From a virus: a DNA stretch of 32,585 nt. The translations under genes were made by a program, and so were the position numbers. The notes under the pieces are model-generated. The model did no database searches. It worked only from the letters and a program-made list of their open reading frames with translations, and was not told the origin of the DNA. The DNA lies in IMG/VR virus record IMGVR_UViG_3300049216_000176, positions 1-32,585 of that record; one strand, given 5' to 3'. Below, piece after piece: positions 6,308 to 29,201 of this stretch (positions within the stretch are counted from its first letter, which is position 1; every line of letters starts with the position of its first letter).

Positions 6308-6973
6308 ATGCGATTCAGCCTGTGGCTCGAAAAAACTGAATCGGGCCGACCCATCGTTTTCTCCGACATGGACGAAACACTGGTTCACAACATGGAGATT
6401 GGTTGGCTCAAGGACTCCCCAGAAAATAAGGAGTTCGCCAAACTGGTCGTTCCCGGTAAATCGCCGTACCCCGACGTGAAGAAGATTCACGCCGAAGACA
6501 AAGATATGTACGTCTTCCCCCGTCCGGGGGCGACGGAATTCATCAAGTCCGTCAACGAGTTCGCCGATTTCTACTTCCTCAGTCACAGCCGCATCGACTA
6601 CGTTGAGAAGGTCGTCGAAGTCATGGGGTGGAAGAAGATCGTCAAGGGTTGTTTCAGTGCGGGCGACACCAAACCGGGCGAACTCGCCAAAAAGTTCAAC
6701 CTCGCCAGCCGCAAGTGGTTGTTGATCGACAACCTCCACATCCACAGCATCGAAATCACCAACAAACTACGAATCCTGGGGCTGGGCGGTAACACCAAGA
6801 ACCCCAAGGAAATCGCCAAAGAAGTCATGAAGCAGGCCGAAGACCACTTTATTGATGTGGAGGATTGGATACCGACCGTCCACGAATACGACGACTACGA
6901 ATTGTGGAAAACTTTACCGAAGGTAAAGGAGAAGCTGGGGCTGGACTGGACGCAGGACGACCCGAACTTTTGA
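6308..6973 (+). CDS. HAD-superfamily phosphatase (NIF/FCP1-like)
   Basis: The 221-residue protein has the HAD nucleophile motif SDMDETLV, with D20 and D22 and T24 giving DxDxT. It is followed by FPRPGATEFIKSV...DFYFLSHSRIDYVEKV, the arrangement seen in FCP1/SCP (NLI-interacting factor) phosphatases. Motif IV is likely around WLLIDN at residues 138-143. The substrate could be a phosphoprotein, a nucleotide or a 3'-phosphate end; the sequence does not decide. The N-terminus MRFSLWLE resembles the short targeting-type N-termini of other proteins in this window. It sits three bases after the CHASE3 gene, so they form an operon. The 3' end overlaps the convergent gene by 125 bp. Confidence 0.8.
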   Translation: MRFSLWLEKTESGRPIVFSDMDETLVHNMEIGWLKDSPENKEFAKLVVPGKSPYPDVKKIHAEDKDMYVFPRPGATEFIKSVNEFADFYFLSHSRIDYVEKVVEVMGWKKIVKGCFSAGDTKPGELAKKFNLASRKWLLIDNLHIHSIEITNKLRILGLGGNTKNPKEIAKEVMKQAEDHFIDVEDWIPTVHEYDDYELWKTLPKVKEKLGLDWTQDDPNF

Positions 6974-10852: not shown

Positions 10853-12289
10853 TTAGATGACGAAGTTGGCGATGGACATTCTGGCGTAGAACTTAGCACC
10901 CTCACGCAGCAATTTCTTGCCGTATCGTGTGAGGATACCCTTTCTTGGGCAAAAGCTCTCTGGGTCCAAAACCACTGGCGTCTGCGTGAGCGGGACGTAG
11001 GGGCAGTAAAAGTACCCGGAATCCATGTAAGAGTCACCCTTGTAACCCATGAGGATTTGGTTCGACGGGAACAGCGGGTCTTTGTACAGACGCCATCTGT
11101 TGTTGACGGTTCCGACGTACTGGATACCCAGCGACGAAGTGAACGTCTCGGACGGTGCAGGAGCGAAACCAGCCGTTGCCGTCTCGAAGATCGAGGCGAC
11201 TTCAGGCGACGTGACGAGCCAGTTGGCTCCACCACGCAGGGTCTTCCTGTGGATGACGTTGGAAACTTCGACAACCTTCACATACAGCGACTCGTACTTT
11301 TCCTTGATGGTTTCGCCGAGAGCCGTGTTGAAGTCCCAAGCGGCAACCGTACCGGCGTTGTTGCGCAAGTCGGTCAACACTTCACGGTCGATTTCCAGGT
11401 TGATTTCCTGAGCCAGAACTGCGGTCAGTTCGGCTTCTGCGTCCAGGTTGTGCTGGGAGCGCAAGTCCTGCTGGGCCTCGTAGGACCACACAGCCTTCAA
11501 CTTCCTGGTCTTGGCGGCAATTTCTTCCGACTCAATGACCAAGTTAATTTCCGGCAAATCTTGCTGGCACTCCATGTTGTACTCGTAGGAAAGTACAGCG
11601 TGGTTAGCACCCGCAGCGGCGTTCCACGTCAGGACCAATTCGCCGGTCGTCAGGTTCAAAGAACCAGCCGTGACGTAGGTAGCCGGGCTACCAATGGTGC
11701 TGAAGGTGAAGGAACCGCCAGAGGAGATCACGAACGTCTGGACAGCCACAGAGCCGTCGTAGATCGTACCAGTGACCGTTCCTGCCAGGATCGGGGTGTG
11801 TTCGAGCGGTGCGTAGGACGCAGTGACGCTTCCGCCATTGTCCGTGCTGGTGGACTCATTCTGCACGAACTGGTGCGTGTAGAAAATGTCCAGGTTGGCC
11901 GTACCGTCTGCCAACTGCATCAGGGTGTTGGCGTCGTCACCTGGGAAGCCGCCGTTGTTGTCAGCACCACGGGTTGCGCCCTTGTTGCTGGAGTAACGGA
12001 AGCGGAGGTAGTACACCAATCCGGTCGGGCCGAGCAATGGCTGAACAGATACGATCTTGTTCGCAATCAACTGCGGGTAAATACGACGCACGAGTGGGAT
12101 CGAAATCCTCTTGAACTGTGCGATGTCGCCTGTGTCGGTCGAAACCTCGTTCATCAAGCGCTGGTTCTCAAGCAGAACGGCGGTGGCAGACCGGATGTAC
12201 CGATCTTCAATGCCTTCAAGCAGACCAGTCTTGCCCCAACGAGATTCCAACTCACGAGCTTCATTCAAAAACTTGGAATTTGCGTTCAT
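10853..12289 (-). CDS. Major capsid protein, T4 gp23-like
   Basis: This 478-residue protein builds the icosahedral shell. It starts at ATG 12289 after AAGGAAAGAAGATAG. Hallmarks in order: ESRWGKTGLLEGIEDRY near the N-terminus, TGDIAQFKRISIPLVRRIYPQLIANKIVSVQPLLGPTGLVYYLRFRY, an inserted beta domain around 155-230, IAAKTRKLKAVWSYEAQQDLRSQHNLDAEAELTAVLAQEINLEIDREVL, and the C-terminal YKDPLFPS...LMGYKG....MDSGYFYCPYVPL. In T4 the N-terminal segment is removed by the gp21 protease at an (I/L)xE site; GLLE in the first 25 residues is a candidate. It is the last gene of the head operon. A shortened copy of its C-terminal module is encoded at 763-1005. Confidence 0.95.
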   Translation of the reverse strand: MNANSKFLNEARELESRWGKTGLLEGIEDRYIRSATAVLLENQRLMNEVSTDTGDIAQFKRISIPLVRRIYPQLIANKIVSVQPLLGPTGLVYYLRFRYSSNKGATRGADNNGGFPGDDANTLMQLADGTANLDIFYTHQFVQNESTSTDNGGSVTASYAPLEHTPILAGTVTGTIYDGSVAVQTFVISSGGSFTFSTIGSPATYVTAGSLNLTTGELVLTWNAAAGANHAVLSYEYNMECQQDLPEINLVIESEEIAAKTRKLKAVWSYEAQQDLRSQHNLDAEAELTAVLAQEINLEIDREVLTDLRNNAGTVAAWDFNTALGETIKEKYESLYVKVVEVSNVIHRKTLRGGANWLVTSPEVASIFETATAGFAPAPSETFTSSLGIQYVGTVNNRWRLYKDPLFPSNQILMGYKGDSYMDSGYFYCPYVPLTQTPVVLDPESFCPRKGILTRYGKKLLREGAKFYARMSIANFVI

Positions 12290-12328: not shown

Positions 12329-13228
12329 TTATTGGGTTTTCTTAACACCAGAGAGTACGAGCAAGTCGCTAATCTCGTGGTTGGGGTTTGCATATTCCGC
12401 AATGACTACCCCGTCCGTTTTGTCAACGGTGTGTCCGCTCCCCGTTACGTTCTTTGCTTTCTGGACTCTTTCTTTCTGTTCGGTGATGACTGCTTCCTTC
12501 TTGCTGGCAGTCGAAACCTTCCTGGACTCGGAGATCAACTCCGAAGCCTGACGGACAGTTTCATTCAGCTTAGTATTCTCGGTAGAAAGTCTGATGTTCC
12601 GAGCTTCCATAATTCTCAATTGTCCCTTCATTTCTTCGATGGACTTGGAAGCCTCTTCCAGCTTGCCGGAAGTTGCACCATTAAAGTCCTCGTCGGAAAG
12701 GTACTGAGAAGTAATGTCCACGATGCGATCCAAGGCAACCTTGTGTTCGGCCATGCGTGGGTCATTCAAGATGTCCCGCTTGGCCTGCTCGTAGATTTCG
12801 CCGCCCTTGAACTGGAGGAACTGATCGACCTTATCGACGATGTATTCCTTCATTTCAGCGAGCTTGCGGTCGTACTCTTCATACATCTCTACTTCGAGAG
12901 TATTGTTCTTGTCTTTTTCGTTCTTCAACATCTGGTAGGCTTCTTCGTAGCCCTCTTCCAGAGCGTGCTTGTACTCTTCACCCTGAAGTTCCAGACGGTT
13001 ACGGAGTTCACCAATGATGGCGTAAGCCTCTTGGTAGCCGTTCTCGGCGGTCTTCTCTGCCTGGGCGAGTTCTGTCGAAAGCTCGGAGTAGGCTTCTTCC
13101 AACTTGTTGTTGTACTCGCCTTCGAGTTCAGCCTTTGCGCCTTCCAACATTTCCTTCACCGCACCGGCAACTTCGCTAACCTCGGAATCAGGCAGTAGTT
13201 TTTTCAGTGCTTCTACAATCTTGTCCAT
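12329..13228 (-). CDS. Prohead scaffold (core) protein, gp22-like
   Basis: The 299-residue protein is largely helical and rich in Glu and Lys, with long coiled-coil segments (about 25-130 and 185-235). This suits an internal scaffold that templates capsid assembly and is then degraded by the prohead protease. Features shared with gp22-type scaffolds include the DPRMAEHKVALDRIVDITSQYLSDEDF region and the C-terminal YANPNHEISDLLVLSG. The start ATG overlaps the protease stop by one base (TAATG), so the two are coupled. It precedes the major capsid gene exactly as in T4. Confidence 0.9.
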   Translation of the reverse strand: MDKIVEALKKLLPDSEVSEVAGAVKEMLEGAKAELEGEYNNKLEEAYSELSTELAQAEKTAENGYQEAYAIIGELRNRLELQGEEYKHALEEGYEEAYQMLKNEKDKNNTLEVEMYEEYDRKLAEMKEYIVDKVDQFLQFKGGEIYEQAKRDILNDPRMAEHKVALDRIVDITSQYLSDEDFNGATSGKLEEASKSIEEMKGQLRIMEARNIRLSTENTKLNETVRQASELISESRKVSTASKKEAVITEQKERVQKAKNVTGSGHTVDKTDGVVIAEYANPNHEISDLLVLSGVKKTQ

Positions 13229-13914
13229 TAGCCTAACCTCGCTTTGATTGTGCTAGTTTCCTTAGTGATGATGCCACCCAAACAAGCAATTAGTGCGTCC
13301 TTATTTACCTTATGTATGCCGCTACTTTCGTTTTTCGCAACACTTCTGGTATTTTGATTCGGATTGTACGATTCGCTTTTTCCACCCGCTTTTGCTTGGA
13401 AAGCATTGTGGGTGCTGGGGTCGGCTACGGCGTCGAAAGTGATGAGCTTGTAGCTCTCCCCAATGACGAGAATACCGTTCTCGTCAACCTTTCCACTGCC
13501 TACGCCTCGACTGCTAATACCTACACGAACACCGCTGTTGATGAGAGCCTTTAGAATCTCGCCACACGGCGTCGGTAGAATCTCGCCCTCACCCATCAAG
13601 TTATTGCCTTCCCACCACAGTTTGGTAACAACGTGGGACGCCTTCTCGAAATGGATGATGCTGTCTGTCGGGTGATCCAACTCACCCACCAAACCACGCT
13701 GAGAAACCATTTCATGTAGTTTCTTCACGTTTTCGTCCAGAACGGAGTGTGGATACACCCGCCTGTTTTTGTTCACGGCCTCGGCCTCTTGGAACTTGCC
13801 TTTGAAGCGAGTCAGTCCGTCCTTTTTGAAGGACGACTCGTTCAAATTCATCTCCATGAAACAGCCAGGGACGGAACAGCACTCAATAAAGAGTTGAGTT
13901 TCTTCTGCTTTCAT
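13228..13914 (-). CDS. Prohead maturation protease, T4 gp21-like
   Basis: This serine protease digests the scaffold and trims head proteins inside the prohead. Family motifs are clear in the 228-residue chain: NKNRRVYP at 48-55, GELDHP with the catalytic His81, VGISSRG with Ser134 or Ser135, and FDAVADPS at 160-167 with the supporting Asp. The start at ATG 13914 has only a distant AAGGG, 14 bases upstream. It is coupled to the scaffold gene (TAATG overlap) and lies 21 bp after the core-like gene. In this family cleavage follows (L/I/A)-x-E, and matching sites occur in neighbouring proteins. Confidence 0.93.
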   Translation of the reverse strand: MKAEETQLFIECCSVPGCFMEMNLNESSFKKDGLTRFKGKFQEAEAVNKNRRVYPHSVLDENVKKLHEMVSQRGLVGELDHPTDSIIHFEKASHVVTKLWWEGNNLMGEGEILPTPCGEILKALINSGVRVGISSRGVGSGKVDENGILVIGESYKLITFDAVADPSTHNAFQAKAGGKSESYNPNQNTRSVAKNESSGIHKVNKDALIACLGGIITKETSTIKARLG

Positions 13915-13935: not shown

Positions 13936-15888
13936 TTAGAAGTTGTTTTTCTTGGGCGTTCCCTGCGTAGTCTCGCCCTTGTCCGTCACAAGGTTGCCCT
14001 TGTCGATGGTGGCCTTGTACTTGCTCTTGTCCCACGGCGATTCTGGAACATACGGGTTCTTCAGGTTCGGCCATGTGTCGTTGGACTGCCAACGGCTCCA
14101 GTCGCTCGTACCGGCGGTCGCCGCACTTTCTTCGCCCTTCATCTTGTAGCTGCCAACATCCCACGGGGACTTCGGAACGTATGGGTTCTTCAGGTCAGGG
14201 TAGGTTTCGTCGTTGGCGTACTGGCTCCAGGAGCGGTTACGCATCTCTTCGGCCTCGCCGTTCTTGTAGCTCTTGCCGTCGGAAACCGGAGCCTTGTCGC
14301 CCCAATCGCCAGGGAAGTTGGAAGGAACTGCGTTCGTGACCTTGGCGAGCTTCGCCATCTGCGGGTGGTCGCCACTCACAGTGGTGTAAACGTCGCTGTT
14401 GGAAACGTCCCAAGTGTCCTTGGCCCCTTCCACGTTCGCTTCTGCAAGATCGAACAAGTAATTGGCAATCGCTTCTGCGAGGTCCAGGTCAGGCTGGTTC
14501 TCACGGTTCAGAATCGCTTCACAGTTGTGCAGGTAGTTACCGACTTCGCTGCGGGTTGCCTCGTCGCCCGTTTCGGATGCGACACGGAAGACCTCGTGCA
14601 GAGCCTTGTAGAGATCGGCGAAGACCTTCAACTCGGCCTTGTCGTTCTCGTCCAACTGCGGGTAGAATTCTTCGCAAACATGACGGAAGTTGGCGTATGC
14701 GTCCTTCCCGTCTGCGGATTCGGTCGTGGCTTCGGCGGAAGCACCGGCCAGATTGGTGATCTTGCGGACCCGATCCGTGTAGGCGTGGTGGGCCATCCGA
14801 AGGATGCCTTCCGCCATGAAATCACAGGTCTGGTCGTCGAAGTTCTTGATCGCAGCAACTTCCAGGGCGTGGCTGATCTGCTCGGCCAGTTCCGGCTGAG
14901 TCAGGTACAGAACGTCCGGCCAGTAGGTGACGATCTTTTCGAGGGTTTCTTCGAGAGCGGTGTTGTCGGAAATGTTGTTGTAACGCTTCAGATCGGCCAT
15001 CGCCTTGCAGAAGTTCGTGTCTTCCGCCAACTTCTTGATCTTGGCACGCTGTACTTTGACTTCGTGGTCCAGGGTCTTCCAGTTGAAGGAAAGAATCTTG
15101 CCTTCGTTCCGCTTCTGGAGGGTAGGCATTGCGACTGCGACAATGTTGCCACGGTCGTCGTGCTGAACTACCGATTCCTTAATGGTCGGGCCGAATTCCT
15201 TGTAGTCGATGTAGTCCAAGACGTTTTCGCACATCGTAGACCATTCCTTCATGGTGGTCGGCTTCACCTTGCGGGCGTAAGTCCTCCACCGGGGGTTGTT
15301 CGCCCCACCCAACTTCTTGGCGGCGTTGGCACGCTTCTTGGCAACGGCGGAACGGAGCGAAGGAGCAGCCGACAGCTTCTTCTTCGTCTTCTTCATTTCC
15401 CGGATGCGCTTGGCGACCAAACCACGGTCCTGCTTCTTGCCGTAAAGGGCAGAGTGCTTACCGGACGGCTTGCCGACGGTGACGTTGAAACCTTCGCTCA
15501 CGACCAGATCACGACGAACTACCGGGAGAGACAGGTAGCTCTCGAACTGTTCGGATGCCTTGGATTCGTTGTTATCCAGCAGGGACTCGACCATGCTGAC
15601 CAGGACGTTGCGAGCGACTTTCTTCTCACTGTCCTCTTCGATGACCAGCGACTCGATGCTTTCGAGGACAAGCTGTTCTTTGTTGATTTTGTAATTTGCG
15701 TGAACAAAACTGCCGTCCAACGACTGATACGTTACATCGGATTCTCCGAAGCAATGCAGCTTCAGTTCATCGACGCCCAAGGTCTTGGACAGCACTTCTT
15801 CCGCACCGACCAGTTCGTATTGGGCGGTCGAAATAGAGCCTTCCTCGATCTTCTTGAAGACATCAAAGCTGATGAGTTTTCTTTTCAT
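13936..15888 (-). CDS. Large prohead core or internal head protein with NPYVP repeats
   Basis: I place the start at ATG 15888, after GGGAGTCGCAGAAT, giving 650 residues. Its place between portal and protease is that of the T4 core proteins gp67 and gp68, though it is far longer. The N-terminus MKRKLISFDVFKKIEEGS resembles a core-targeting peptide with an IEE protease site at 14-16. Residues 160-210 are very basic (KKTKKKLSAAPSLR, KKRANAAKK). The middle (about 220-470) is helical. The C-terminal 110 residues carry two copies of a W..(Y/W).(N/S)D.T(Y/W)P(D/N)LKNPYVP(K/E)SPWD unit at about 554-577 and 597-620. No named family is recognised; a scaffold, internal or DNA-ejected head protein is likely from context. 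Confidence 0.8.
   Translation of the reverse strand: MKRKLISFDVFKKIEEGSISTAQYELVGAEEVLSKTLGVDELKLHCFGESDVTYQSLDGSFVHANYKINKEQLVLESIESLVIEEDSEKKVARNVLVSMVESLLDNNESKASEQFESYLSLPVVRRDLVVSEGFNVTVGKPSGKHSALYGKKQDRGLVAKRIREMKKTKKKLSAAPSLRSAVAKKRANAAKKLGGANNPRWRTYARKVKPTTMKEWSTMCENVLDYIDYKEFGPTIKESVVQHDDRGNIVAVAMPTLQKRNEGKILSFNWKTLDHEVKVQRAKIKKLAEDTNFCKAMADLKRYNNISDNTALEETLEKIVTYWPDVLYLTQPELAEQISHALEVAAIKNFDDQTCDFMAEGILRMAHHAYTDRVRKITNLAGASAEATTESADGKDAYANFRHVCEEFYPQLDENDKAELKVFADLYKALHEVFRVASETGDEATRSEVGNYLHNCEAILNRENQPDLDLAEAIANYLFDLAEANVEGAKDTWDVSNSDVYTTVSGDHPQMAKLAKVTNAVPSNFPGDWGDKAPVSDGKSYKNGEAEEMRNRSWSQYANDETYPDLKNPYVPKSPWDVGSYKMKGEESAATAGTSDWSRWQSNDTWPNLKNPYVPESPWDKSKYKATIDKGNLVTDKGETTQGTPKKNNF
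14035..14228 (-). repeat. Two imperfect copies of the NPYVP(K/E)SPWD unit
   Basis: Within the core-like gene, two segments of about 65 bp (near 14036-14100 and 14165-14228) encode nearly the same peptide unit. The spacing is 129 bp, so the frame is kept. The conserved centre is LKNPYVP(K/E)SPWD. Confidence 0.8.
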
Positions 15889-16060
15889 ATTCTGCGACTC
15901 CCTAGTGCTGTGTTGATTTTCTCCGAATCTTTCCGAACCCGGATGCCCTCGCATGTGGAGGTATATATTAACCTGCCACTGAATTTACCGAGATGACCCT
16001 CAAATTCAGCGTCCTTCACTACATAGGTATGCAGAAAGACGCAAAAACCAGCGAGGTATT
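15889..16060. promoter_or_regulatory. Divergent promoter region between head operon and internal-protein gene
   Basis: The 172-bp gap carries TAATATATACC on the minus strand (15960-15970), about 70 bp upstream of the core-like gene. This is a T4-late-type TA box. On the plus strand the ribosome site GAGGTATT precedes ATG 16061. I see no gene here. Confidence 0.45.
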
Positions 16061-16402
16061 ATGAAAACATTCAGTGACTTCATCAGCTTGAAGGAAAATG
16101 GCATCCTGGACGTTGACAAAGCCGACGAGACGGGCGACGACAGTGGCATTATGCGGGCGCTTTCCCATGCTGCGGACAAACATCATAGTGAGGTAGTATC
16201 TTTCCTTCAAAGACTCGCCAAACAAGACCCCGACATCCAACTCGAACTCGACAAGATCAACCACAAGAACGCCGGGCCGAAACACCACAAACGCAAGCCC
16301 CGCATGGGAACGTCCCTCGGAGCCGGGTTCGACAACGGCGACGGCGACGTTGTAGTTCCCAACAGTGCGGATTCTGCGTCCGGCGAAATGCCAAATAGTT
16401 AG
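16061..16402 (+). CDS. Putative internal head protein with T4-like capsid-targeting peptide
   Basis: The 113-residue protein starts MKTFSDFISLKENG, with GAGGTATT before the start. The T4 internal proteins IPI-IPIII start with a ten-residue capsid-targeting sequence of the form MKTYQEFIAE, cleaved after Glu by gp21. The match over MKT(F/Y)x(D/E)FI is striking, and LKE at residues 10-12 would be the protease site. The mature part would be about 100 residues: an acidic start, a helical middle (MRALSHAADKHHSEVVSFLQRLAKQ), a basic stretch (GPKHHKRKPRMG) and an acidic tail. A protein packaged with DNA and injected into the host is an inference. It lies inside the head gene block but on the opposite strand. 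Confidence 0.75.
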   Translation: MKTFSDFISLKENGILDVDKADETGDDSGIMRALSHAADKHHSEVVSFLQRLAKQDPDIQLELDKINHKNAGPKHHKRKPRMGTSLGAGFDNGDGDVVVPNSADSASGEMPNS

Positions 16403-16437
16403 TTTGGTGAGGTTCTGATTTTGAAGCCCATCTTTGC

Positions 16438-16450
16438 TGGATATATATGT
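16438..16450 (+). promoter_or_regulatory. TATATA late-type promoter box
   Basis: GGATATATATGT lies 35-47 bases upstream of ATG 16485, leaving room for a leader with its own GAGGGAG ribosome site. It resembles the boxes at 21940, 27402 and 27985. Confidence 0.45.
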
Positions 16451-16484
16451 AGCCAGTCCAGACTTGTCACAAAGAGGGAGCTAT

Positions 16485-17414
16485 ATGACCAACGAATTTT
16501 GGGCCGTGACCACGTTCTTCAACCCGGCAAAGTTCAAGTCTTTGCTGCAAAACTACTACATTTTCGCCGACAAACTCCGTCAGCAGGGCGTCAACCTGAT
16601 GACCGTCGAGTGTGCGTTCGGCGACGACGAATTTGAAATTCCTGAAGGGCCGAACGTACTGCGTCTCAGATCGCAGAGCGTAATGTGGCAGAAAGAAAGA
16701 CTCATCAACTACGGCGTTTCGCAACTGCCGCCCGACTGTAAATACTTCGCTTGGCTCGACTGTGACATCATCTTCACGAACGACCAGTGGGCCGAAATCG
16801 CCGTCCAAAAGCTGCAAACAGCCGACGTTCTTCAGGTGTACAAGAAGGTGATCTACCTGCCGCAAGGACATGAAGTGTTCAACGGACGGGACAAACTGAT
16901 GATGGTGCAGGGCATCGTGTGGCAGAAGATGATTCACAAGAATTGGCTGGACCGCCGCCGGGCCAAGCAACTCCCGTTCTCGGCTCCGGGCTTCGGCTGG
17001 GCCGCACGTCGGGATTTCTTCCACTGCCCGGAACTCAACGGCATCTATGATAAAAACATCATCGGCAGCGGCGACACCTTCCTGGTGGACTGCTACTTCG
17101 ACTCCTGGGACATCCACGGATTCGCCCAGAAGTTCACCGACCCGATGAAGCAACACATGATGGATTGGGCCGCAAAGTTGAAGGCCAAGAAGCCCGTCCT
17201 GGACTACCTGCCGGTGGACATCTGGCACTTGTGGCACGGCAGCCTGAAGAACCGCAAGTACATGGACCGGCACGACGTAGTTCTGAAATACAACTACGAC
17301 CCGGAGGGCGACATCGTTCTTTACGGCAACACCTACGAGTGGGCCAGCGACAAGCCGGAATTCCACGAAGACATTCGCCAGTATTTCTACAGCCGTAAAG
17401 AAGACGAAGTTTAA
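16485..17414 (+). CDS. GT-A-fold glycosyltransferase-like protein (paralogue)
   Basis: This 309-residue protein starts at ATG 16485 after AGAGGGAGCTAT; a methionine 17 codons upstream has no ribosome site. It is a paralogue of the gene at 3425-4393. Shared features are TVE.AFG near 40, MWQKERLINYGVSQLP at 67-82, the DxD motif in FAWLDCDIIF (D92-C-D94), APGFGWAARRDFF in the middle, and the terminal WHLWHGSLKNRKY. It sits between the internal-protein gene and the portal operon and overlaps the convergent zinc-ribbon gene by 4 bp. The sugar donor and acceptor are unknown; its place in the head module makes virion protein or DNA glycosylation worth considering. Confidence 0.85.
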   Translation: MTNEFWAVTTFFNPAKFKSLLQNYYIFADKLRQQGVNLMTVECAFGDDEFEIPEGPNVLRLRSQSVMWQKERLINYGVSQLPPDCKYFAWLDCDIIFTNDQWAEIAVQKLQTADVLQVYKKVIYLPQGHEVFNGRDKLMMVQGIVWQKMIHKNWLDRRRAKQLPFSAPGFGWAARRDFFHCPELNGIYDKNIIGSGDTFLVDCYFDSWDIHGFAQKFTDPMKQHMMDWAAKLKAKKPVLDYLPVDIWHLWHGSLKNRKYMDRHDVVLKYNYDPEGDIVLYGNTYEWASDKPEFHEDIRQYFYSRKEDEV

Positions 17415-17677
17415 GGCTTCTTCTGTTTGTTGAACCAGTAGAATTGGGCCTTGCGAAGTTTCTCTTCATTGAGTTCTTCGTCGAGGCCCATGTTGCATAC
17501 AACCGCATCAATTCCACACTTCGGACAAATACAAGTCTGGTCGTTGTCCGTGTAGTCTTTGACCTCTTCCGGTTTGAACATGGCGCAACAGTAGAAACAC
17601 CCGGCGAGGGTGGAAGATTCCACTTCTCGCCGGTTCTTCAGTGCGTACCTCGGCATATCGTAGATACCGAAAATCAT
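17411..17677 (-). CDS. Zinc-ribbon small protein
   Basis: The 88-residue protein has GCFYCCAMFKPEEVKDYTD....CICPKCGIDAVV, a pair of C-x2-C knuckles about 23 residues apart. This is the pattern of a widespread small zinc-ribbon family in bacteria and phages with the CFYC...F...EI..W.....T..CP.CGID consensus. Its function is not established. The start codon shares one base with the portal stop (TAATG), so it is translated from the portal message, and its stop overlaps the convergent glycosyltransferase by 4 bp. Confidence 0.85.
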   Translation of the reverse strand: MIFGIYDMPRYALKNRREVESSTLAGCFYCCAMFKPEEVKDYTDNDQTCICPKCGIDAVVCNMGLDEELNEEKLRKAQFYWFNKQKKP

Positions 17678-20232
17678 TACTTACCACCTACTGAGTAGTC
17701 GATGTCCTCGTCGTCCTGCTCCGTCTCGTAGTCCTGAATCTCAAGGTCGAACTTCTTGACATCGGCAGCTTCCGCTTCAGGGAGCGGACTTCCTTCAGGC
17801 GGCGTAGCGCCCGGAGGGGCCGGTTGATCGCCACCCGGAGGCGGTTGATCCCCGCCAGGAGGAGCAGGCGGCGCACCCTGATCGGGAGGCGGTCCACCAG
17901 CGCCACCATCCGGCGACGGGTTCGGGCTTGGGCCACCCGGCTCCGAGCCGAGTTCCTGACCGGCCTGCGGGTCTTGCCCCGGAATGCCGATGCCCAACAA
18001 CTGCGGGTTCTGGGCGAGTACCTGAAGTTTCAAGTCTTCCAACTTCTGAATCTTCAAGCGGCTCAACATCTCCTCGGCCTCGTCCTCGGTATACTTGAGG
18101 ATTTTGACCATGATGTCCCAATCCGCCATCAATTGACCGCTCTTCAAAGTCGTTGCGTTCCCGTAGCGACCGTTGACCACTTCTGCCCTGGACAACTCAC
18201 GCCAGTCGCTCGGCGGGGTCATCTTGATCTTCAAGTCCTCGAAGGAGTTGTCCGGGTATCCCCTCAACTGAAGGTGACGCTCGGCCAGTTCCAACAGCCC
18301 GTCCTCGAAGTGGCTCTGCAACCGCTCGATCATGCGGGCGAACTTCACGTCCTGGGCACTCAACGTCACCCTCGTCGCCTGGGCGTCCTCGTTGGCGAAG
18401 TAGTTCTTCGGGAAGTTCAAAGCCGTGAACAGCTTATTCCTGAAGTAAATCGCATCGTCGATTTCGCCAAGGTTCTGCGCACCCGGAAGGGTTTCGATCC
18501 TCGTCTGGGACTGTGGACGAATCGGCAACCAGTAGTCTTCGTCAGCCGCAGGCGGCTGCCACCGCTCTTCCACTTGGTTCGCACCCGGCGTGCCCCGGTT
18601 CTGGGCAATTTTACGCTTCCTGAACTGATCCTTCAACCGCTCCATGAAGGCTTCGGCCTTGAACGGCGGCAACTGCCCAACGTCCACATAGAACACCCGA
18701 CGTTCCGGGGCACGGGTCAGCCGGTAGACAACCATCGCATCTTCCATCAACCGGAGTTGGTGGGCCGGGCTTCTCGCCGGTTCGATGAGGGATTGTCCAT
18801 ACGGGTAGAACGTCTTCCGGTCGTCGCCGATCCTGAAGTGTACGATCTGGAACGGGGAGAACCGGATCGCCATGCTCTGGTTCAGTTCGGCCTCGGCAGC
18901 CTGACTCACCAGCGGGGCACGCACGATGGCCTGATAGTCCGGGCCTTCCTTCGACTGCTGGTACTCGATCAGCTTGCCCTTGGTGGTTTCGATCCGGTAC
19001 ATGCTTTCCGGCGGCAACGGGATGGCCTTGTAGATGCCTTCCTTCGGGTTGTCCGGGTTGATGACCGTTTCCACGAAGAAGTCGCCCATGATGCACAGGT
19101 TCTTGAACCACGTCCAGGAGTGCCGGTTCATGTTCAACATCAGTCTGTTGCGCATCATGAACTCGACTTCCTTCTTGGCCTCCTCGTTCGCACAGATGAC
19201 CTTGAAGACGTGGCCGTCCTCGTCCTTCTGGCAGTTGTGCATGATGACACTATCGGTGGCGAAACACTTGTGTTCGTCCACGCTCAGGTCGTACACGTTC
19301 ATTTCGGGGCTTTCGTGGACCCCGACCACCCGCCGCTTGTCCTCGTTGTCGGAAAGCACCTTCACTTCCCGGTGGGAGAACCCCTCCCGCTGCAACCACG
19401 CCTCGACCGTTTGCCAGTCGTGGCCGATCAACTGAGCGATCTGCCGGACGGACAAGCCGCCGGAAATCATCCTGATCGCCCGGTTCATCTTTTCGTACTT
19501 CTCGTCGGCCTTCCCCTTCTTCCACTCGTCCACGAACTGCCGCTCGTGAATCCAGCCTTTGTTGGTGGTGAAGATGCGGGGGAACTGCTTCGCCCGGTTC
19601 TTGGTGTGGCGGTAGCTCGCCGGAACACGGTAGAACGGCTTCAGTTCGTCCCCACGGGTCAACTCACCGGCAGCCACCCACGTCCCGTCCTTGCGCAAGA
19701 TTTGGTGGTCCGGGGTGACTGTGAAGGTTTGGCCGTTGTCGAGAATAACTGTGACGGTCGGCGCTCTCTTAACCAGCCGGGGGTGATAACCCCAGCCCAG
19801 CGTGTAATCGTTCTGCTTGAAATCCCAACAGTAAACAAGGAACCGTTCGTCGGGGCCGTGTTTCGCCGCCAGGGATTCGATGGTCTGGAACCCAAAGGGG
19901 GTCGCAATCTTCGTGTCACCGGACACACAGGCTTCGTCGGCCAGCACCGTCATCGTCATTTCGATTTCGGGCACGTTCCGAAGCCGTTCGTACTCTTTGT
20001 ACCGCATGGAGCGGTTCGTCAGAGTCGTCGTGTCAATCATGTCGTTGGTTTGGCGCAGTTGTGCCCCACCACCGCCCGCACCGCCTGCGGCCCCCTCGCC
20101 GCCCAGCGACGGATACACGTCGGGTTGTCCGATACCAGCACCTTGTAGGTTGCGGGTATCCTTCTTCTTAGCCAGCGGGTCTTTCTCGCTGGCGTAAGTG
20201 AACAACTTAAAGAAGTCACTCCAAATTGGCAT
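17677..20232 (-). CDS. Portal protein, T4 gp20-like, with in-frame intein
   Basis: The spliced product forms the dodecameric portal vertex for DNA packaging and tail joining. The start at ATG 20232 follows AGAGAGGAGAAATAT. The precursor has 851 residues. N-extein 1-101 ends in NVPEIEMTMTVLADEA. The intein spans 102-333. The C-extein resumes at Cys334 with CQKDEDGHVFKVI and contains the family core (MRNRLMLNMN...WFKNLCIMGDFFVE, PPESMYRIETTKGKLIEY, FSPFQIVHFRIGDD, YGQSLIEPARSPAHQLRLMEDAMVVYRLTRAPERRVFYVDVGQLP, DAQATRVTLSAQDVKFARMIERLQ). The last 100 residues are a Pro/Gly-rich tail ending in an acidic segment. Spliced length would be about 619, compared with about 520 for T4 gp20. Confidence 0.95.
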   Translation of the reverse strand: MPIWSDFFKLFTYASEKDPLAKKKDTRNLQGAGIGQPDVYPSLGGEGAAGGAGGGGAQLRQTNDMIDTTTLTNRSMRYKEYERLRNVPEIEMTMTVLADEACVSGDTKIATPFGFQTIESLAAKHGPDERFLVYCWDFKQNDYTLGWGYHPRLVKRAPTVTVILDNGQTFTVTPDHQILRKDGTWVAAGELTRGDELKPFYRVPASYRHTKNRAKQFPRIFTTNKGWIHERQFVDEWKKGKADEKYEKMNRAIRMISGGLSVRQIAQLIGHDWQTVEAWLQREGFSHREVKVLSDNEDKRRVVGVHESPEMNVYDLSVDEHKCFATDSVIMHNCQKDEDGHVFKVICANEEAKKEVEFMMRNRLMLNMNRHSWTWFKNLCIMGDFFVETVINPDNPKEGIYKAIPLPPESMYRIETTKGKLIEYQQSKEGPDYQAIVRAPLVSQAAEAELNQSMAIRFSPFQIVHFRIGDDRKTFYPYGQSLIEPARSPAHQLRLMEDAMVVYRLTRAPERRVFYVDVGQLPPFKAEAFMERLKDQFRKRKIAQNRGTPGANQVEERWQPPAADEDYWLPIRPQSQTRIETLPGAQNLGEIDDAIYFRNKLFTALNFPKNYFANEDAQATRVTLSAQDVKFARMIERLQSHFEDGLLELAERHLQLRGYPDNSFEDLKIKMTPPSDWRELSRAEVVNGRYGNATTLKSGQLMADWDIMVKILKYTEDEAEEMLSRLKIQKLEDLKLQVLAQNPQLLGIGIPGQDPQAGQELGSEPGGPSPNPSPDGGAGGPPPDQGAPPAPPGGDQPPPGGDQPAPPGATPPEGSPLPEAEAADVKKFDLEIQDYETEQDDEDIDYSVGGK
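19234..19929 (-). mobile_element. Intein in the portal gene, with helix-turn-helix insert
   Basis: The 232-residue intein begins CVSGDTKIAT, a standard N-terminal block with Cys1. Block B is VTPDHQILRKDGTWVAAGEL (about 71-90), with the T-x-x-H motif. It ends with MNVYDLSVDEHKCFATDSVIMHN, blocks F and G with the His-Asn end, followed by Cys+1. All residues needed for splicing are visible. Between the splicing halves, at about 145-185, lies a helix-turn-helix (AIRMISGGLSVRQIAQLIGHDWQTVEAWLQREGF) instead of a LAGLIDADG or HNH endonuclease. It could be the DNA-binding remnant of a lost homing endonuclease. The insertion site is the conserved DEA/C junction of the portal. Confidence 0.93.
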
Positions 20233-20315
20233 ATATTTCTCCTCTCTAATTAAGTGAGTGTCCGAAGACACCTTGTTGTAGCTATTAGAGGGGATTGTTT
20301 TTTTAACCGAACTAC

Positions 20316-20906
20316 ATGAAAAAAGTTTGCTTCATTACTAGCCACTTGATGTCGGGTTCGGACTTGTTGTTCGACGCCCTGGACCAGAACCCACGGGTTC
20401 ACGGGTTCCGGCTCGACCGACCGTATGTGGACGTGCCCGCAATACTGGAACTCACCTACAAGCGGCACAAGCTGAACAACGAGGCGGCGGTGTACATGGA
20501 CGAGTTGCTTTTCAACTACTCGCTCCAGACGAAGGACGCCTACAAGTTGTGCAAGTTCGTGTATGTGGTCCGGCCCCCGGAGCGGGCGTTGAACGAACTG
20601 GTGGTGGACGGGTACAAGCCGTGGGCGGCGTGCAACTACTACTGCTACCGGCTGCGGCGGATGTGCGAGATGGCGAAGCGGACGCCGGGGGCGGTCCTGC
20701 TGACCTACGAGGACATCGTGACGGGGCGGGGCTTCCCGCTGGTCGAGGAGTACCTGAACCTGAAGACGAAGTTGGAGGTCGTGCCGACGAAAAAAGGGAC
20801 CAGTGTTTCTTCACTGGTCCCTTCGGACTTAGTTCGTCATGCCGACCGAGCATTTAATCGGTACTTTCATTTTCTCTGCCATCAGCCAATTGTCTTCTAC
20901 AAATGA
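20316..20906 (+). CDS. Sulfotransferase-like protein
   Basis: The frame gives 196 residues. The start MKKVCFITSHLMSGSDLLFDALDQNPRVHGF has the layout of a 5'-PSB loop of PAPS-dependent sulfotransferases (K-h-x-h-h-x-G-x-x-x-G-T-x-x-h). Here GSDLL replaces GTTLL. KFVYVVRPPERALNELV fits the 3'-PB region (FhhhhRdPhxhhxS), and VLLTYEDI is the matching strand. No clear ribosome site precedes ATG 20316. The last 40 codons run through a terminator hairpin and antisense to the carboxypeptidase gene, so the natural C-terminus may lie near residue 157. Sulfation of a glycan is an inference. Confidence 0.65.
   Translation: MKKVCFITSHLMSGSDLLFDALDQNPRVHGFRLDRPYVDVPAILELTYKRHKLNNEAAVYMDELLFNYSLQTKDAYKLCKFVYVVRPPERALNELVVDGYKPWAACNYYCYRLRRMCEMAKRTPGAVLLTYEDIVTGRGFPLVEEYLNLKTKLEVVPTKKGTSVSSLVPSDLVRHADRAFNRYFHFLCHQPIVFYK
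20790..20823 (-). terminator. Rho-independent terminator inside a convergent coding region
   Basis: A 12-bp perfect stem (20794-20805 with 20812-20823) has a 6-nt loop. On the minus strand it is followed by six U, and it lies just beyond the carboxypeptidase stop at 20829. On the plus strand the same bases encode part of the sulfotransferase-like protein. Confidence 0.85.
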
Positions 20907-21911
20907 CACCGGCTGGATGCCGACCGTCGGTGCGTCCTGGATGAAGTACAGAATGCCCTTGTAGGTTCTCTGGAACTCGCTCTGGATTTCCGGGAGAGAC
21001 GGTGGCCGCTGGTGCGTGCCGACTTCCATCACGATGGAGAACGCCCCGTGGCGGTAGTACCAGTCCACTTCCGACCCACCGATGGTGGTGGCGTACATAT
21101 TGCACGCCCGGTCGATCTTGTACTGGCACATGGTCGCCATCTTGCCCACGATGCGGGTGTAGTCGGCGTCGTTCGGGCAGCGGGTCTTGCTGTCCCCGTA
21201 AGGGCACAACAGGATGCGACCGAACGTGTGCGTCGAGATGACGGCCTTCGGCCTGATCTTCGTGAAGAAGGTCTGCATCTGGTCAACGCACGGGGTTGAC
21301 TTGTGGTTCGGGCGGGACGGGCCGGGGAAGTCACGGTTCGGGTCCACGCCGTCGATGGTCCGGGAGTTCGGGTAGCTGTCCGGGCACATGACCGGAACGA
21401 AATAGATGTCCCGGTTGTTGATGAGACTGGTGACTTCGGGGTCTTTGCCGTAGTTGGACAACATCGTGCCGATTGTCGCCATCACGTTGGCGGTGGCGTG
21501 CGGCTCGTTCCCGTGGATGCAGGCGTGAATCAACACGACCGGGGCGGGAGTAATGGGCGTGTTCAACGGCAACGCCTTCGACGCCAAGTTCGTGACCCGG
21601 ATGTAGTACAGTTCTTTACCCTGGCGGGATTTGCCGTAGGTTCCCACTTCCGTCAGGTCGGGGGCTTCTTTGTTCCACTTCTGGAGTTGGGCCACGACCG
21701 CCGGGTACTGTAGGAACGACGGCACGGGGGTGGAGATGTTCGGCGTGGCCGGGACTCTCGGCGGCTCCGGGACCGGAGGCACGATCTCGATTTTCGGGAC
21801 CGGCATTTCCTGCCGGGCGATAGGTTTGTTGGTTTTTAGTTTGTATCCGCCGACGAGAACAATGAGAGCGATGAGTCCGATCACCACCCAATGTAGGTTG
21901 CTCCTTTGCAT
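20829..21911 (-). CDS. Membrane-anchored M14-family zinc carboxypeptidase
   Basis: The 360-residue protein has an N-terminal membrane span at about 8-22 and a Pro-rich linker (30-65), so its domain should lie outside the cytoplasm. The M14 residues are present: H133-x2-E136 in HACIHGNEPHA, NR at 192-193 in GVDPNRDFP, zinc ligand H228 in ISTHTFGRILLCPYG, and catalytic E296 in IVMEVGTH. Phage M14 enzymes can cleave peptidoglycan stem peptides; cleavage of host surface proteins or peptides is equally possible. GGAGGCATT precedes the start and a strong terminator follows the stop. Confidence 0.9.
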   Translation of the reverse strand: MQRSNLHWVVIGLIALIVLVGGYKLKTNKPIARQEMPVPKIEIVPPVPEPPRVPATPNISTPVPSFLQYPAVVAQLQKWNKEAPDLTEVGTYGKSRQGKELYYIRVTNLASKALPLNTPITPAPVVLIHACIHGNEPHATANVMATIGTMLSNYGKDPEVTSLINNRDIYFVPVMCPDSYPNSRTIDGVDPNRDFPGPSRPNHKSTPCVDQMQTFFTKIRPKAVISTHTFGRILLCPYGDSKTRCPNDADYTRIVGKMATMCQYKIDRACNMYATTIGGSEVDWYYRHGAFSIVMEVGTHQRPPSLPEIQSEFQRTYKGILYFIQDAPTVGIQPVSFVEDNWLMAEKMKVPIKCSVGMTN

Positions 21912-21962
21912 AATGCCTCCGTTGCATTTGAACTTTCAAATGTATATATGCGAGGAGGCTCT
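21912..21962. promoter_or_regulatory. Divergent promoter region with TATATA box
   Basis: TGTATATATG at 21941-21950 on the plus strand lies about 13 bases upstream of ATG 21963, just before the GAGGAGG ribosome site. The left end of the gap holds the ribosome site of the carboxypeptidase gene. Confidence 0.4.
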
Positions 21963-22157
21963 ATGATTTCATTCCGTGAGTGGCGACTGAGAGAAGTGCT
22001 TGGACCGACTAGCCCGTCAATGGTGGACGACGAAGGCGACGGGCTGGAACGGGTGTTGAAGAACAACCCCGCCCCAGCCCTTGATGTGATGAACCCGAAG
22101 GAACGCCCGCCGACCCGTCAGAACCGGGCGAAACCGATTTTCAGTAAGAAGAAATAA
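21963..22157 (+). CDS. 64-residue protein with targeting-peptide-like N-terminus
   Basis: The start at ATG 21963 follows GCGAGGAGGCTCT. The N-terminus MISFREWRLREVLGPTSP has the aromatic amphipathic pattern of the internal-protein leader at 16061, with LRE at residues 9-11 as a candidate prohead-protease site. The remainder is acidic and then basic (RPPTRQNRAKPIFSKKK) with no recognised domain. Such a peptide could be packaged into the head. The 3' end overlaps the convergent sirtuin gene by 17 bp. Confidence 0.65.
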   Translation: MISFREWRLREVLGPTSPSMVDDEGDGLERVLKNNPAPALDVMNPKERPPTRQNRAKPIFSKKK

Positions 22158-22869
22158 GTTCTTCCGCCAGCAGCGGCATGTGATGTCCCGCCGTACCTTC
22201 CAGGCGGGTGTAACTGTGCAGTCGCAGCGGCGGCTTCAAGTCGATGAAATACTTCTTGGCGGCGACCCGGAAGGTGAACAACAGACCCGCAGCCGGTTGG
22301 ACCTGGGCGCTGGTCCCGATCCCGATGAACACGTCGGTGTTGGGAGCCATGTCGTCCAGGTCTTTGTACTTCATGTCCACCGCCTCGCCGAACCAGACCA
22401 CGGCGGGCCGCATGTGTCCCCCGCACTTCGGACACATATCCCCGTCCTTTACCGGCTCCGTGTGCGTCGTCTCGTAGTCGCAGGTGTACTGCATGTCGCC
22501 GTCGAGGTTGCTGATGTTCTTGTGCCACTCGCACTTCCGCTTCCCGATACTGCCGTGCAAGTGCCAGACGTTCGTACACCCGGCCCGTTCCAACAGGTCG
22601 TCGATGTTCTGGGTGATGTTCAGTACGTCGTACTTTTCTTCGAGTTTGGCGATGGCGAAGTGGGCGGCGTTCGGTTCGACCGACTTGACGTTGGCGAACC
22701 GCTCGGCGTAGAAGTCCAGGATGAGTTGGCGGTTCCTGGGCCACGCTTCGTGGTCGGCCACGTCCTCAACTTTGTGGTTGTGCCACAACCCGTTGGTGTC
22801 CCGGAAGGTGGGAATGCCGGACTCGTTAGACAGTCCTGCCCCAGAGAAGATCACGATTTTCTTTTTCAT
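22141..22869 (-). CDS. Sir2-family NAD-dependent protein deacylase (sirtuin)
   Basis: It removes acyl groups from lysines using NAD. The 242-residue chain contains GAGLSNESGIPTFR at 10-23, TQNIDDLLERAG at 86-97 and the catalytic His105 in HLHGS. The zinc ligands are probably Cys113, Cys130, Cys146 and Cys149. VVWFGE is at 157-162 and a GTS near 180. It thus looks like a full bacterial class III/U deacylase rather than the NADase-type SIR2 of defence systems, which usually lack the zinc module. The start overlaps the upstream stop as ATGA, and GGGAG is close by. A phage sirtuin could alter acylation of host proteins. Confidence 0.93.
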   Translation of the reverse strand: MKKKIVIFSGAGLSNESGIPTFRDTNGLWHNHKVEDVADHEAWPRNRQLILDFYAERFANVKSVEPNAAHFAIAKLEEKYDVLNITQNIDDLLERAGCTNVWHLHGSIGKRKCEWHKNISNLDGDMQYTCDYETTHTEPVKDGDMCPKCGGHMRPAVVWFGEAVDMKYKDLDDMAPNTDVFIGIGTSAQVQPAAGLLFTFRVAAKKYFIDLKPPLRLHSYTRLEGTAGHHMPLLAEELISSY

Positions 22870-23402
22870 TTTTTCTCCCATTTTTGCCATCTCCCGTTTT
22901 TCTTCTGGTAAAAGTAGCGTGCCGACAGTGGCACATCGAACCACAGTTCTTTGTCGCCGAAATTGAGGGCGGTTTTTTCGATGACGGGCGACTGATGAAT
23001 AATACTCATCGGGCAAAGCCACGCCAACGGATGTCTTGTGGAAATCAGGCTGTACAAGTCAGCCCTGTTATCGTTTTTTCTATATGGGATGCTAAGGTAA
23101 GAATAGCAGAACGGGAAAAGATGGATCGGATCGGGATCAAAAGGATCGGAGAAATGTTTATTCGACAAATCCGGTCGTGCCTCTCCTTCAACTCGAAATT
23201 GTTTCGAGTTTCCCACCATCCAAAAAGACAGATCGAATTTACCCTGAGAGAAGTCCAGATTGGCTTCGCTATCGTTGAAATTGAATCTGTCGAGATTGCT
23301 TCCGAGAAGATCGTTTAGTATTTCTACGATGCGTTCTTTTGCGAACGCATCGGATTGTTTGTGGTCGAGGTCTTTTCCGACCGCATACGGCTTGTTTTTC
23401 AT
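22866..23402 (-). CDS. Unknown protein coupled to the sirtuin
   Basis: The 178-residue protein is encoded by DNA that is visibly AT-richer than its neighbours. I do not recognise it. It has a charged N-terminus, a helix AFAKERIVEILNDLLGSNL, then FDLSFWMVGNSKQFRVEGEARPDL, which loosely resembles the D...E-x-K core of PD-(D/E)xK nucleases but lacks the lysine. An aromatic stretch LFPFCYSYLSIPYRK follows, and the basic end is GRWQKWEKK. Its stop overlaps the sirtuin start (ATGA), so the two are co-translated and may work together. Confidence 0.7.
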   Translation of the reverse strand: MKNKPYAVGKDLDHKQSDAFAKERIVEILNDLLGSNLDRFNFNDSEANLDFSQGKFDLSFWMVGNSKQFRVEGEARPDLSNKHFSDPFDPDPIHLFPFCYSYLSIPYRKNDNRADLYSLISTRHPLAWLCPMSIIHQSPVIEKTALNFGDKELWFDVPLSARYFYQKKNGRWQKWEKK

Positions 23403-28426: not shown

Positions 28427-29017
28427 ATGGACGACTTCAAAACTGAAAAGTGGACGCTTGATGATGGCCGCAGGGCCGAGCGTCGGGTCACGGACAATGT
28501 AAATCCTACTGGAGAGGCGGAACGGGTCATTGAACTTCACGTCGAAGATGAACGCCCACTTCGTCTCCAGCAGCGAGTAGTAGAAAAACGCAAGCCCTTC
28601 GTTTACGAAAGGGAAATTCACACCGTTGACAAGTCTGGCAATGTTGTGGAGAAAAAGGTCGAGGCCGTCGAGCCACGAGTCCAGATGCAGTTGGTCGAAC
28701 ACCTTGTTACCGACAACGGCGTGAGTGCCCTCAGCACCGACCCGGTTGTTGCTAACGACTGCCACGTTACGAAAGAGGAGATGATCGAAACCATCGTCAG
28801 CGCCATCAAAGCCCTGAAGACGGAAATTGAGGTCAAGCAGCCGGTGGTTCAGACCCCGGTTCCGGTCCAGGCCGCTCCGGTCCCAGGCAGCCTCGCCGAA
28901 GAAATCGCCCGTCGAAACGGTGCGACCGCCCAGCAGCCGGGAACTGTCAATATGGTTCTCTGGGGCGTGATTGCTGCCCTCGTCATCGGCTTGGGGTATG
29001 TAATCTTCGGTATGTAA
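28427..29017 (+). CDS. Tail-anchored membrane protein of unknown function
   Basis: The 196-residue protein starts after AAAGGAGAACAATT. Residues 1-95 are highly charged and carry a repeating RRV/EKR pattern with beta character (RVIELHVEDERPLRLQQRVVEKRKPFVYEREIHTVDKSGNVVEKKVEAVE). Residues 110-140 form a helix, and 140-165 are a Pro/Gln linker. The C-terminus MVLWGVIAALVIGLGYVIFGM is a single membrane anchor, so the bulk faces the cytoplasm. No family is recognised. Membrane attachment could serve lysis control, replication-site anchoring or exclusion of other phages. Confidence 0.75.
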   Translation: MDDFKTEKWTLDDGRRAERRVTDNVNPTGEAERVIELHVEDERPLRLQQRVVEKRKPFVYEREIHTVDKSGNVVEKKVEAVEPRVQMQLVEHLVTDNGVSALSTDPVVANDCHVTKEEMIETIVSAIKALKTEIEVKQPVVQTPVPVQAAPVPGSLAEEIARRNGATAQQPGTVNMVLWGVIAALVIGLGYVIFGM

Positions 29018-29021
29018 GCAA

Positions 29022-29201
29022 ATGCTTCCAAAAGAACTGATGCTCGAATGGGGCGATTGTGTCATTTTGCACAATCGCCCTTTCTATTCCACCACTGTGA
29101 TAGAAGACAAAAAACCCGAACCTCCAAAGGAAGTCCGGGTCAAGAAGTCGTTCTACGAGTTGTCCAAATCCTGGCATCCCCTCGACCTTACGGGGGCGTA
29201 A
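29022..29201 (+). CDS. Possible 59-residue protein crossing a terminator hairpin
   Basis: The frame from ATG 29022 to TAA 29201 begins four bases after the stop of the tail-anchored protein. It encodes a sensible soluble peptide (MLPKELMLEWGDCVILHNRP ... SFYELSKSWHPLDLTGA). No ribosome site precedes it. It reads straight through a strong terminator hairpin and overlaps the convergent structural gene by 14 bp. It may be real, with the hairpin as an attenuator, or fortuitous. Confidence 0.4.
   Translation: MLPKELMLEWGDCVILHNRPFYSTTVIEDKKPEPPKEVRVKKSFYELSKSWHPLDLTGA
29051..29087 (+). terminator. Rho-independent terminator
   Basis: An 11-bp perfect stem (29051-29061 with 29070-29080) has an 8-nt loop and is followed by TTTCTATT. 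It lies 34 bases after the stop of the tail-anchored membrane protein. Confidence 0.8.

Follow-up and report, generated by a model that had tools for sequence, protein, structure and literature searches.

The 32,585-base IMG/VR virus record IMGVR_UViG_3300049216_000176 (the window, i.e., the whole stretch of DNA that was analysed) is a fragment of a T4-like phage in which several proteins start with a short aromatic peptide resembling the leader of the T4 internal proteins. The question raised by this locus is whether these leaders send proteins into the phage head, as the original prediction had proposed. The N-termini quoted in that prediction were all located where it had placed them, with plausible start sites. 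The leaders are likely to be T4-type capsid-targeting sequences, used in a greatly expanded system by which dozens of cargo families would enter the head. A nucleotide search of the window against the phage record collection gave no match, and relatives were reached through the major capsid protein (MCP) and the prohead protease. Among the closest were G001, a 532,729-base IMG/VR contig (protease 87% and MCP 96% identical), and W01, the 595,163-base uncultured phage LR756511.1 (MCP 82% identical); these two and a 223-kb relative, G002, were read whole. The clear leader members in the window were a 113-residue protein and a 64-residue peptide, with the following features (in leaders, a slash marks the candidate cut):

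16061-16402, plus strand: gene of the 113-residue internal-protein-like protein, an open reading frame (ORF) with a Shine-Dalgarno (SD) sequence and a 77% homologue in G001.
16061-16096, plus strand: putative capsid-targeting leader of this protein, MKTFSDFISLKE/N, with candidate cleavage after E12.
16020-16025, plus strand: late-promoter-like sequence box TACATA, upstream of the 113-residue gene.
21963-22157, plus strand: gene of the 64-residue leader peptide, MISFREWRLRE/V, a gene call with an SD sequence.
21943-21948, plus strand: late-promoter-like sequence box TATATA, upstream of the 64-residue gene.

The leader of the 113-residue protein carries F4, F7 and L10-K11-E12, and that of the 64-residue peptide carries F4, W7 and L9-R10-E11. 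The predicted aromatic stretch ending at a candidate protease site was confirmed for these two (LKE12 and LRE11), whereas it was weaker in a 650-residue protein for which it had also been claimed, where the pair lies at residues 8/11. MKTYQEFIAE, cited as the T4 internal-protein leader, does open ipII and ipIII in the T4 record, and ipI opens MKTFKEFTSTTTPVSTITE/A. The aromatics at 4/7, the basic start and the terminal I/L-x-E are shared with T4 IPI, IPII and IPIII (Mullaney and Black, 1996, as described in PMC9026906 and PMC9958956). The spacer to the site is variable, as in T4 IPI, where ITE stands at 19. In the T4 IPIII leader, targeting resides mainly in residues 4 and 7 and processing in residues 8 and 10 (PMC9026906), and the steps of leader targeting, gp21 cleavage, retention and ejection are established for T4 (PMC9958956, PMC9026906). 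A gp21-type protease, a short leader on unrelated bodies and probable late expression, here judged from promoter-like boxes, are further likenesses to the T4 internal proteins. Unlike T4, which has three internal proteins and Alt, the clade has about 20-45 candidates per phage with several enzyme kinds; moreover, residue 7 is often W and many of the genes have a late box at the AUG.

The placement of an aromatic-x-x-aromatic pair was scored along all called proteins of each genome. Pairs with the first residue at position 4 numbered 37 in W01 against 8.9 per body position (Poisson P = 1.5e-12), 25 against 7.3 in G001 (P = 2e-7) and 16 against 2.0 in G002 (P = 4e-10). The enrichment was confined to residues 3-5/6-8 and to the two-residue gap, and it was unaffected by the collapsing of paralogues. 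Furthermore, the pair-at-4 proteins carried [LI]-x-E within residues 7-24 more often than the other proteins did, with 10/25 versus 20% in G001 (P = 0.017), 16/37 versus 23% in W01 (P = 0.006) and 8/16 versus 18% in G002 (P = 0.006). The control tripeptides [AST]xE, [LI]xxE, [LI]E, [LI]xD and [LI]xK were flat in G001 and W01, and a slight excess of [LI]xQ was confined to G001 (P = 0.07). The N-terminal motif given in the original prediction, combined with [LI]xE within residues 1-20, was also found in excess, 11 times in G001 (shuffled mean 1.6, maximum 5) and 19 times in W01 (shuffled mean 2.8, maximum 8). A wide leader definition, with the pair anywhere at 3-6, was rejected because it gave no L-x-E enrichment (P = 0.19 in G001); the signal sits at residue 4. 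In reciprocal best hits, leader-bearing genes paired with leader-bearing genes (P = 8e-10, 3e-6 and 3e-9).

The comparison genomes were LR756508 (W02), Microcystis phage Mel-JY01, T4, P-SSM2 and 220 kb of phiKZ. The leader scan returned ipI, ipII, ipIII and gp61.1 (MKTFKEFIKE) in T4, which served as the positive control, and nothing in the 220 kb of phiKZ. It also returned nothing in LR756508, a negative that carries little weight because the gene calls of this genome look poor (about 506/590 genes without a clear SD sequence). As a separate observation, T4 gene 61.1 (NC_000866 18966-19130) encodes 54 residues beginning with a perfect capsid-targeting leader, MKTFKEFIKE/D, and could be an internal protein that has escaped notice.

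The 113-residue protein consists of the leader, a short helical body and a kept C-terminal PN(S/A/T)AD motif. Its gene is divergent to that of the 650-residue protein, and an ORF divergent to the latter gene was found in 60 IMG/VR loci. The 113-residue protein alone found no relative in IMG/VR, and synteny gave the approximately 60 loci; a tblastn search of 50,697 phage records including T4 gave no match, and the body showed no similarity to the ipI, ipII and ipIII families. The family comparison comprised 37 distinct ORFs plus the window protein (n = 38), of which 29 were aligned (14-77% identity to the window protein). M1 and F4 were the sole invariant columns of this alignment, with F/Y at residue 7, and the body was hypervariable save some hydrophobic positions and the C-terminal motif. 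[LIVM]xE adjoins the leader in 20/38 members and is absent in the sub-clades MKTFYEFMESVG and MKTFQQYIEDVA. The initial choice of start codons favoured leader-like starts; when the choice was rerun without this bonus, the leader still opened 47/60 loci, and an in-frame MKTF start lay slightly downstream in 5/8 distinct exceptions. AlphaFold2 placed residues 4-12 in a helix of their own and residues 25-70 in a helical body, with a linker of low confidence between them; the mean predicted local distance difference test score was low, at 62. The homologues mostly have TATATA about 30 nt before the start, followed by an SD sequence. The 64-residue homologues likewise retain the leader (MISYREWRLRE in G001; MSFTEWFKRRIKE in loci L045 and L036). 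The 113-residue protein is best explained as a small internal protein kept throughout the clade.

The window carries a head cassette in T4 order on its minus strand (portal, core-like protein, protease, scaffold-like protein and capsid protein), and the gp21-like protease named in the original prediction is indeed part of it:

17677-20232, minus strand: T4-type portal (PF07230, E = 2.7e-77).
13936-15888, minus strand: 650-residue prohead-core-like protein, N-terminus MKRKLISFDVFKKIEE/G; about 79 loci have a homologue next to the protease.
13228-13914, minus strand: gp21-type prohead protease (phrog_207, E = 1.8e-49).
12329-13228, minus strand: scaffold-like protein in the gp22 position, rich in conserved L/I-x-E.
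10853-12289, minus strand: gp23-type MCP (phrog_138, E = 7e-84).

The scaffold-like protein contains 13 [LI]xE sites versus 6.7 expected, and among 44 homologues many of these sites are conserved to 95% or more. In the N-terminal region of the MCP, LNE/A (residues 8-10) and LLE/N (residues 39-41) were invariant in 32/32 homologues. The 650-residue protein contains 11 [LI]xE sites versus 6.0 expected, whereas the portal shows no excess (8 versus 8.1); the T4 list of protease substrates leaves out the portal (PMC9958956). This pattern agrees with cutting at L/I-x-E by the protease of the window phage, although it is not proof of it. When the 650-residue protein was weighed as a relative of the T4 prohead core proteins gp67/gp68, its L-x-E richness and the position of its gene between those of the portal and the protease were in keeping with such a role, but it gave no PHROG or Pfam match. 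Most of its homologues keep the N-terminus MKRKLIS(F/Y)-x-x-(F/L)-K-x-(L/I)-x-E, with the aromatic pair at 8/11 and not 4/7. It had been counted among the packaged cargo and looks like an essential core protein instead. A likeness also exists to the inner-body and ejection proteins of phiKZ and SPN3US (PMC5694885, PMC13282480), jumbo-phage head proteins that are ejected and that a gp21-related protease cleaves behind a Glu residue; those systems differ in having another motif (A-x-E in SPN3US), long propeptides and no T4-type leader. A second gp21-like protease paralogue (PF03420) was observed away from the head cassette at G001:238208-238600 and W01:242618-242986, both on the minus strand (L130 and L101).

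The leader genes were also distinguished by their upstream regions. The T4 late promoter is an 8-bp TATA box (TATAAATA, read by gp55) that precedes the start site by about one helical turn (PMC2988020). Leader genes of W01 were unusually often without an SD sequence and had TATATA or TAAATA right before the ATG instead. A box ending 3-8 nt before the ATG was present in 25/70 leader genes of W01 versus 20/763 others (odds ratio 20.6, P = 1.4e-17), and in 5/41 versus 12/706 in G001 (P = 0.0015). Nearly all such box genes had no SD sequence (43/45 in W01 and 16/17 in G001), and the box-to-ATG spacing peaked at 4-5 nt. A pyrimidine stood directly before the ATG in 24/28 and 15/15 box genes, versus about half of the others, and the upstream neighbour in W01 was divergent for 19/28 box genes versus 117/803 others. 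When the box-N4/5-ATG arrangement was counted without gene calls, 30 instances were found in G001 versus 1-7 for permuted trinucleotides, 57 versus 15-29 in W01 and 18 versus 3-14 in G002; no comparable excess was seen in the five comparison phages. A gp55-like sigma factor is encoded by G001, W01 and G002 (E = 3e-6 to 1e-4).

The clade resembles T4 in the 8-bp TATA box and the gp55-like sigma factor, and differs from it in a promoter class with the box 4-5 nt before the ATG and no SD sequence; the T4 boxes are most frequent 23-30 nt before the ATG. By the T4 distance of about one helical turn from TATA box to start site, the predicted +1 in the box genes is the A of the AUG. The short spacing and the lack of an SD sequence indicate that many leader genes of the clade are probably expressed as leaderless late mRNAs, as judged from sequence. 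Neither the 113-residue nor the 64-residue gene of the window belongs to the leaderless type; both have a box farther upstream and an SD sequence. A hexamer search of the upstream regions first gave early-type motifs that are unrelated to the late box. Strand-specific upstream motifs were noted in W01 (L089-L118; TTATAAAGCTGTACTAA, with AGCTGTAC 43 versus 1 on the other strand) and in G001 (L119-L145; GAGGTCTTCC and TTTCCGAACCT), and are probably promoters of the early or middle class or signals for processing. A conserved 674-residue protein (W01 441066, G001 441045), which by eye may be of the SbcC/gp46 kind, shows the box at the AUG in both genomes and no leader.

The proteins selected by the pair or box criteria in G001, G002, W01 and the window numbered 195 and fell into 164 body families, chance background included. 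Roughly 20-45 proteins per phage in the clade are candidate leader bearers, with mostly unrelated bodies and with enzymes among them. The enzyme candidates were as follows:

Window 6308-6973, plus strand: NIF/SCP-like HAD phosphatase, MRFSLWLE (PF03031 from residue 17, E = 1.1e-11).
Window 4834-5595, minus strand: dTMP kinase with a 43-residue N-terminal extension starting MNSLEGFSQFVFNE/A (PF02223 from residue 44).
W01 580680 and G001 256320: orthologous tagged CCA/poly(A) polymerases, with tags MRTTFLEFMGLKE and MKTLFGKYFTLRE.
W01 429897 and G001 352827: tagged C39/C70-type cysteine protease.
W01 582920: tagged HAD_SAK_1/polynucleotide-kinase-like phosphatase.
W01 343529: tagged SpoVR.
W01 520504: tagged phosphoribosyltransferase.
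G001 28798-29505: tagged SAM-lyase-like protein (weak match, E = 0.0016).

In most tagged proteins with recognisable domains, the Pfam domain begins downstream of the leader, which fits the expectation for an added tag. The HAD phosphatase was rightly predicted to be a weaker match, as it has the pair (F3, W6) and WLE in place of the canonical [LI]xE; its relatives start MQFGLWLE and LDFTLWLE. In the dTMP kinase extension the site is FNE, which is non-canonical, and a box stands 5 nt before the ATG (TACATA in the window, TATATA in the G001 orthologue MVSLDGFTEYVFNE/S). Both enzymes of the window are probable members of the leader-bearing set, the dTMP kinase as possible additional cargo. In the dTMP kinase homologue of L074, an apparent intein-like element breaks the Walker A motif and ends VVHN/STQ. 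The portal N-termini (MPIWSDFF) match the pair pattern and were set aside as probably not cargo.

Cyanophage virion proteomes allowed the leader to be compared with the protein content of mature particles. The S-CREM2 paper gives 52 virion proteins with coordinates (PMC10665884); all 219 genes of this phage were translated, and the leader was then scored against the published list. The pair with L-x-E occurred in 4/28 enzyme or unknown virion proteins versus 1/191 others (P = 0.001), and the pair alone in 7/28 versus 11/191 (P = 0.003). The leader was found on none of the 24 structural, mostly tail, virion proteins. The virion SAM hydrolase starts MKDFDSFLEE and contains a SAM-lyase-like domain (PF23780, E = 2e-19), a domain that is thus tagged in S-CREM2 and, by the weak match listed above, in G001. 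The APH-like kinase (MKRFDAFLTE), the cytidylyltransferase (MKNFSSFLTE) and gp136 (MQTFSMFFSE) of the virion also start with leaders. The text of the S-CREM2 paper makes no mention of targeting, a leader or an N-terminal signal. In S-SZBM1 (PMC9146016), the sole enzyme detected in virions, a cytidylyltransferase, starts MRFRQFIIE/A. Hence, virion SAM hydrolase/lyase, kinase and cytidylyltransferase bear the same leader as the candidates of the clade; S-CREM2 and S-SZBM1 differ in being 175-178 kb viruses whose proteins are reported in virions. Two adjacent small genes of S-SZBM1 (OL473597 gp191 and gp192; L240) start MKSFKSFLSE and MKTFKQYITE/A and are outside the published virion list.

Capsid targeting is supported by the specific position and spacing of the pair, the excess of L-x-E, the return of the T4 internal proteins by the scan, the retention of residues 4 and 7 on diverging bodies, the association with late promoters and the tagged enzymes of the cyanophage virion proteome. 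It is unlikely that the leader-bearing proteins are instead scaffold helpers, directed to the prohead core for assembly or control of head size and digested or inert, and not injected. The 113-residue gene, which is constant across the clade, adjoins the core gene and encodes a small helical body, would suit such a role, and digestion is known for gp22/67/68 of the T4 core (PMC9958956); however, the tagged bodies include many enzymes (among them CCA/poly(A) polymerase, C39/C70 peptidase, HAD and dTMP kinase), and mature S-CREM2 virions still contain tagged enzymes. There is still less probability that the leader serves as a peptide for docking to another place or complex (tail, membrane or replication compartment) with an incidental L-x-E. 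About half of the leader-pair proteins have no clear [LIVM]xE near the leader, as such docking would allow, but the positions and residues of the T4 internal proteins are matched, L-x-E is enriched, the same scan recovers the T4 proteins and the mostly tail structural proteins of S-CREM2 are without leaders. Chance resemblance or an N-terminal composition effect is refuted for the whole set and very improbable, though individual members may still be chance: aromatics are somewhat commoner at N-termini generally (independent-column expectation 6-17), but the signal is specific to gap 2 and residues 3-5, is absent from the control phages and is joined by independent L-x-E, promoter and orthologue signals.

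Several points weigh against capsid targeting. Under the stricter independent-column expectation, the pair enrichment weakens to P = 1e-5 to 2.5e-3, and part of the pair-counted proteins is chance, with a background of 2-9 per position. The proteins lacking a clear [LIVM]xE near the leader include 18/38 of the 113-residue family; in such proteins, cleavage may be absent or obey another rule. S-SZBM1 alone was not significant (P = 0.14-0.6), because its 30 detected proteins are too few, and two of its leader proteins were undetected in virions. The virion proteome support is by analogy, as it comes from cyanophages outside the clade. The gene calls were made with our own caller, which is home-made and uses codon usage and SD sequences.

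For the leaders as capsid-targeting sequences, the following course of events is proposed. Late in infection, a leader-bearing protein would dock through its N-terminal aromatic helix (residues 4 and 7) on the scaffold core growing on the portal, and the shell would close around the core with its docked cargo. The gp21-type protease would then cut after the closing L/I-x-E of the leader, and the cargo would be free in the head. The mature body would stay with the DNA and be ejected into the next cell, where it may act before any phage gene is expressed. Many leader genes would be driven by a late promoter with the TATA box so near the ATG that the mRNA starts at or next to the AUG. For the clade, we infer docking, cleavage, packaging, injection, leaderless translation and an anti-defence benefit. 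T4 IPI blocks GmrSD, and T4 needs IPIII to infect E. coli ECOR17 (PMC9391042); an anti-defence role of the leader proteins in the window phage is only suggested. A further reading, held tentatively and at slightly less than even probability, is a modular injection programme in which a portable late promoter and AUG-leader unit is placed on dozens of unrelated genes with leaderless late mRNAs, and a quickly changing enzyme cargo (SAM lyase, tRNA-CCA/poly(A) polymerase, RNA-repair-type HAD and papain-like protease), carried in the head into the cell, disarms first-line defences and repairs host-inflicted damage.

The T4-type capsid-targeting sequence is a known kind of element. What is new is how widely it is used, the presence of enzymes among the candidate cargo, the connection with enzymes of cyanophage virions and the class of probably leaderless late genes. 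A review of Black's work suggests that T4-like phages may bring in varied proteins by the capsid-targeting sequence (PMC9026906). Among the papers covered that use the term capsid targeting sequence together with bacteriophage, none had a title on metagenomic huge phages or cyanophages; the subscription literature was thinly covered, and earlier reports are possible. For the probably leaderless late mRNA class, no description in T4-like phages was found in the literature searched. With a readable N-terminal tag, the injected proteins of huge phages would become a sequence search that can be checked by virion proteomics. The leader would also explain the unexpected enzymes in the virions of T4-like cyanophages, and, for phages that have hundreds of unknown genes, it offers candidates for counter-defence proteins of the first wave.

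Other features of the window were noted around the cassette. The portal contains an intein (PF14890, E = 1.1e-10) at about residues 113-340, near the start of the portal domain, and the G001 portal could be aligned with the window portal over almost its full length. Host-type enzymes near the head cassette comprise a nucleoside hydrolase (PF01156), an M14 carboxypeptidase, a Sir2-like deacylase and a ferritin-like protein, and the coordinates listed for host-type enzymes around the cassette are 1899-2777, 20829-21911, 22141-22881 and 31922-32368.

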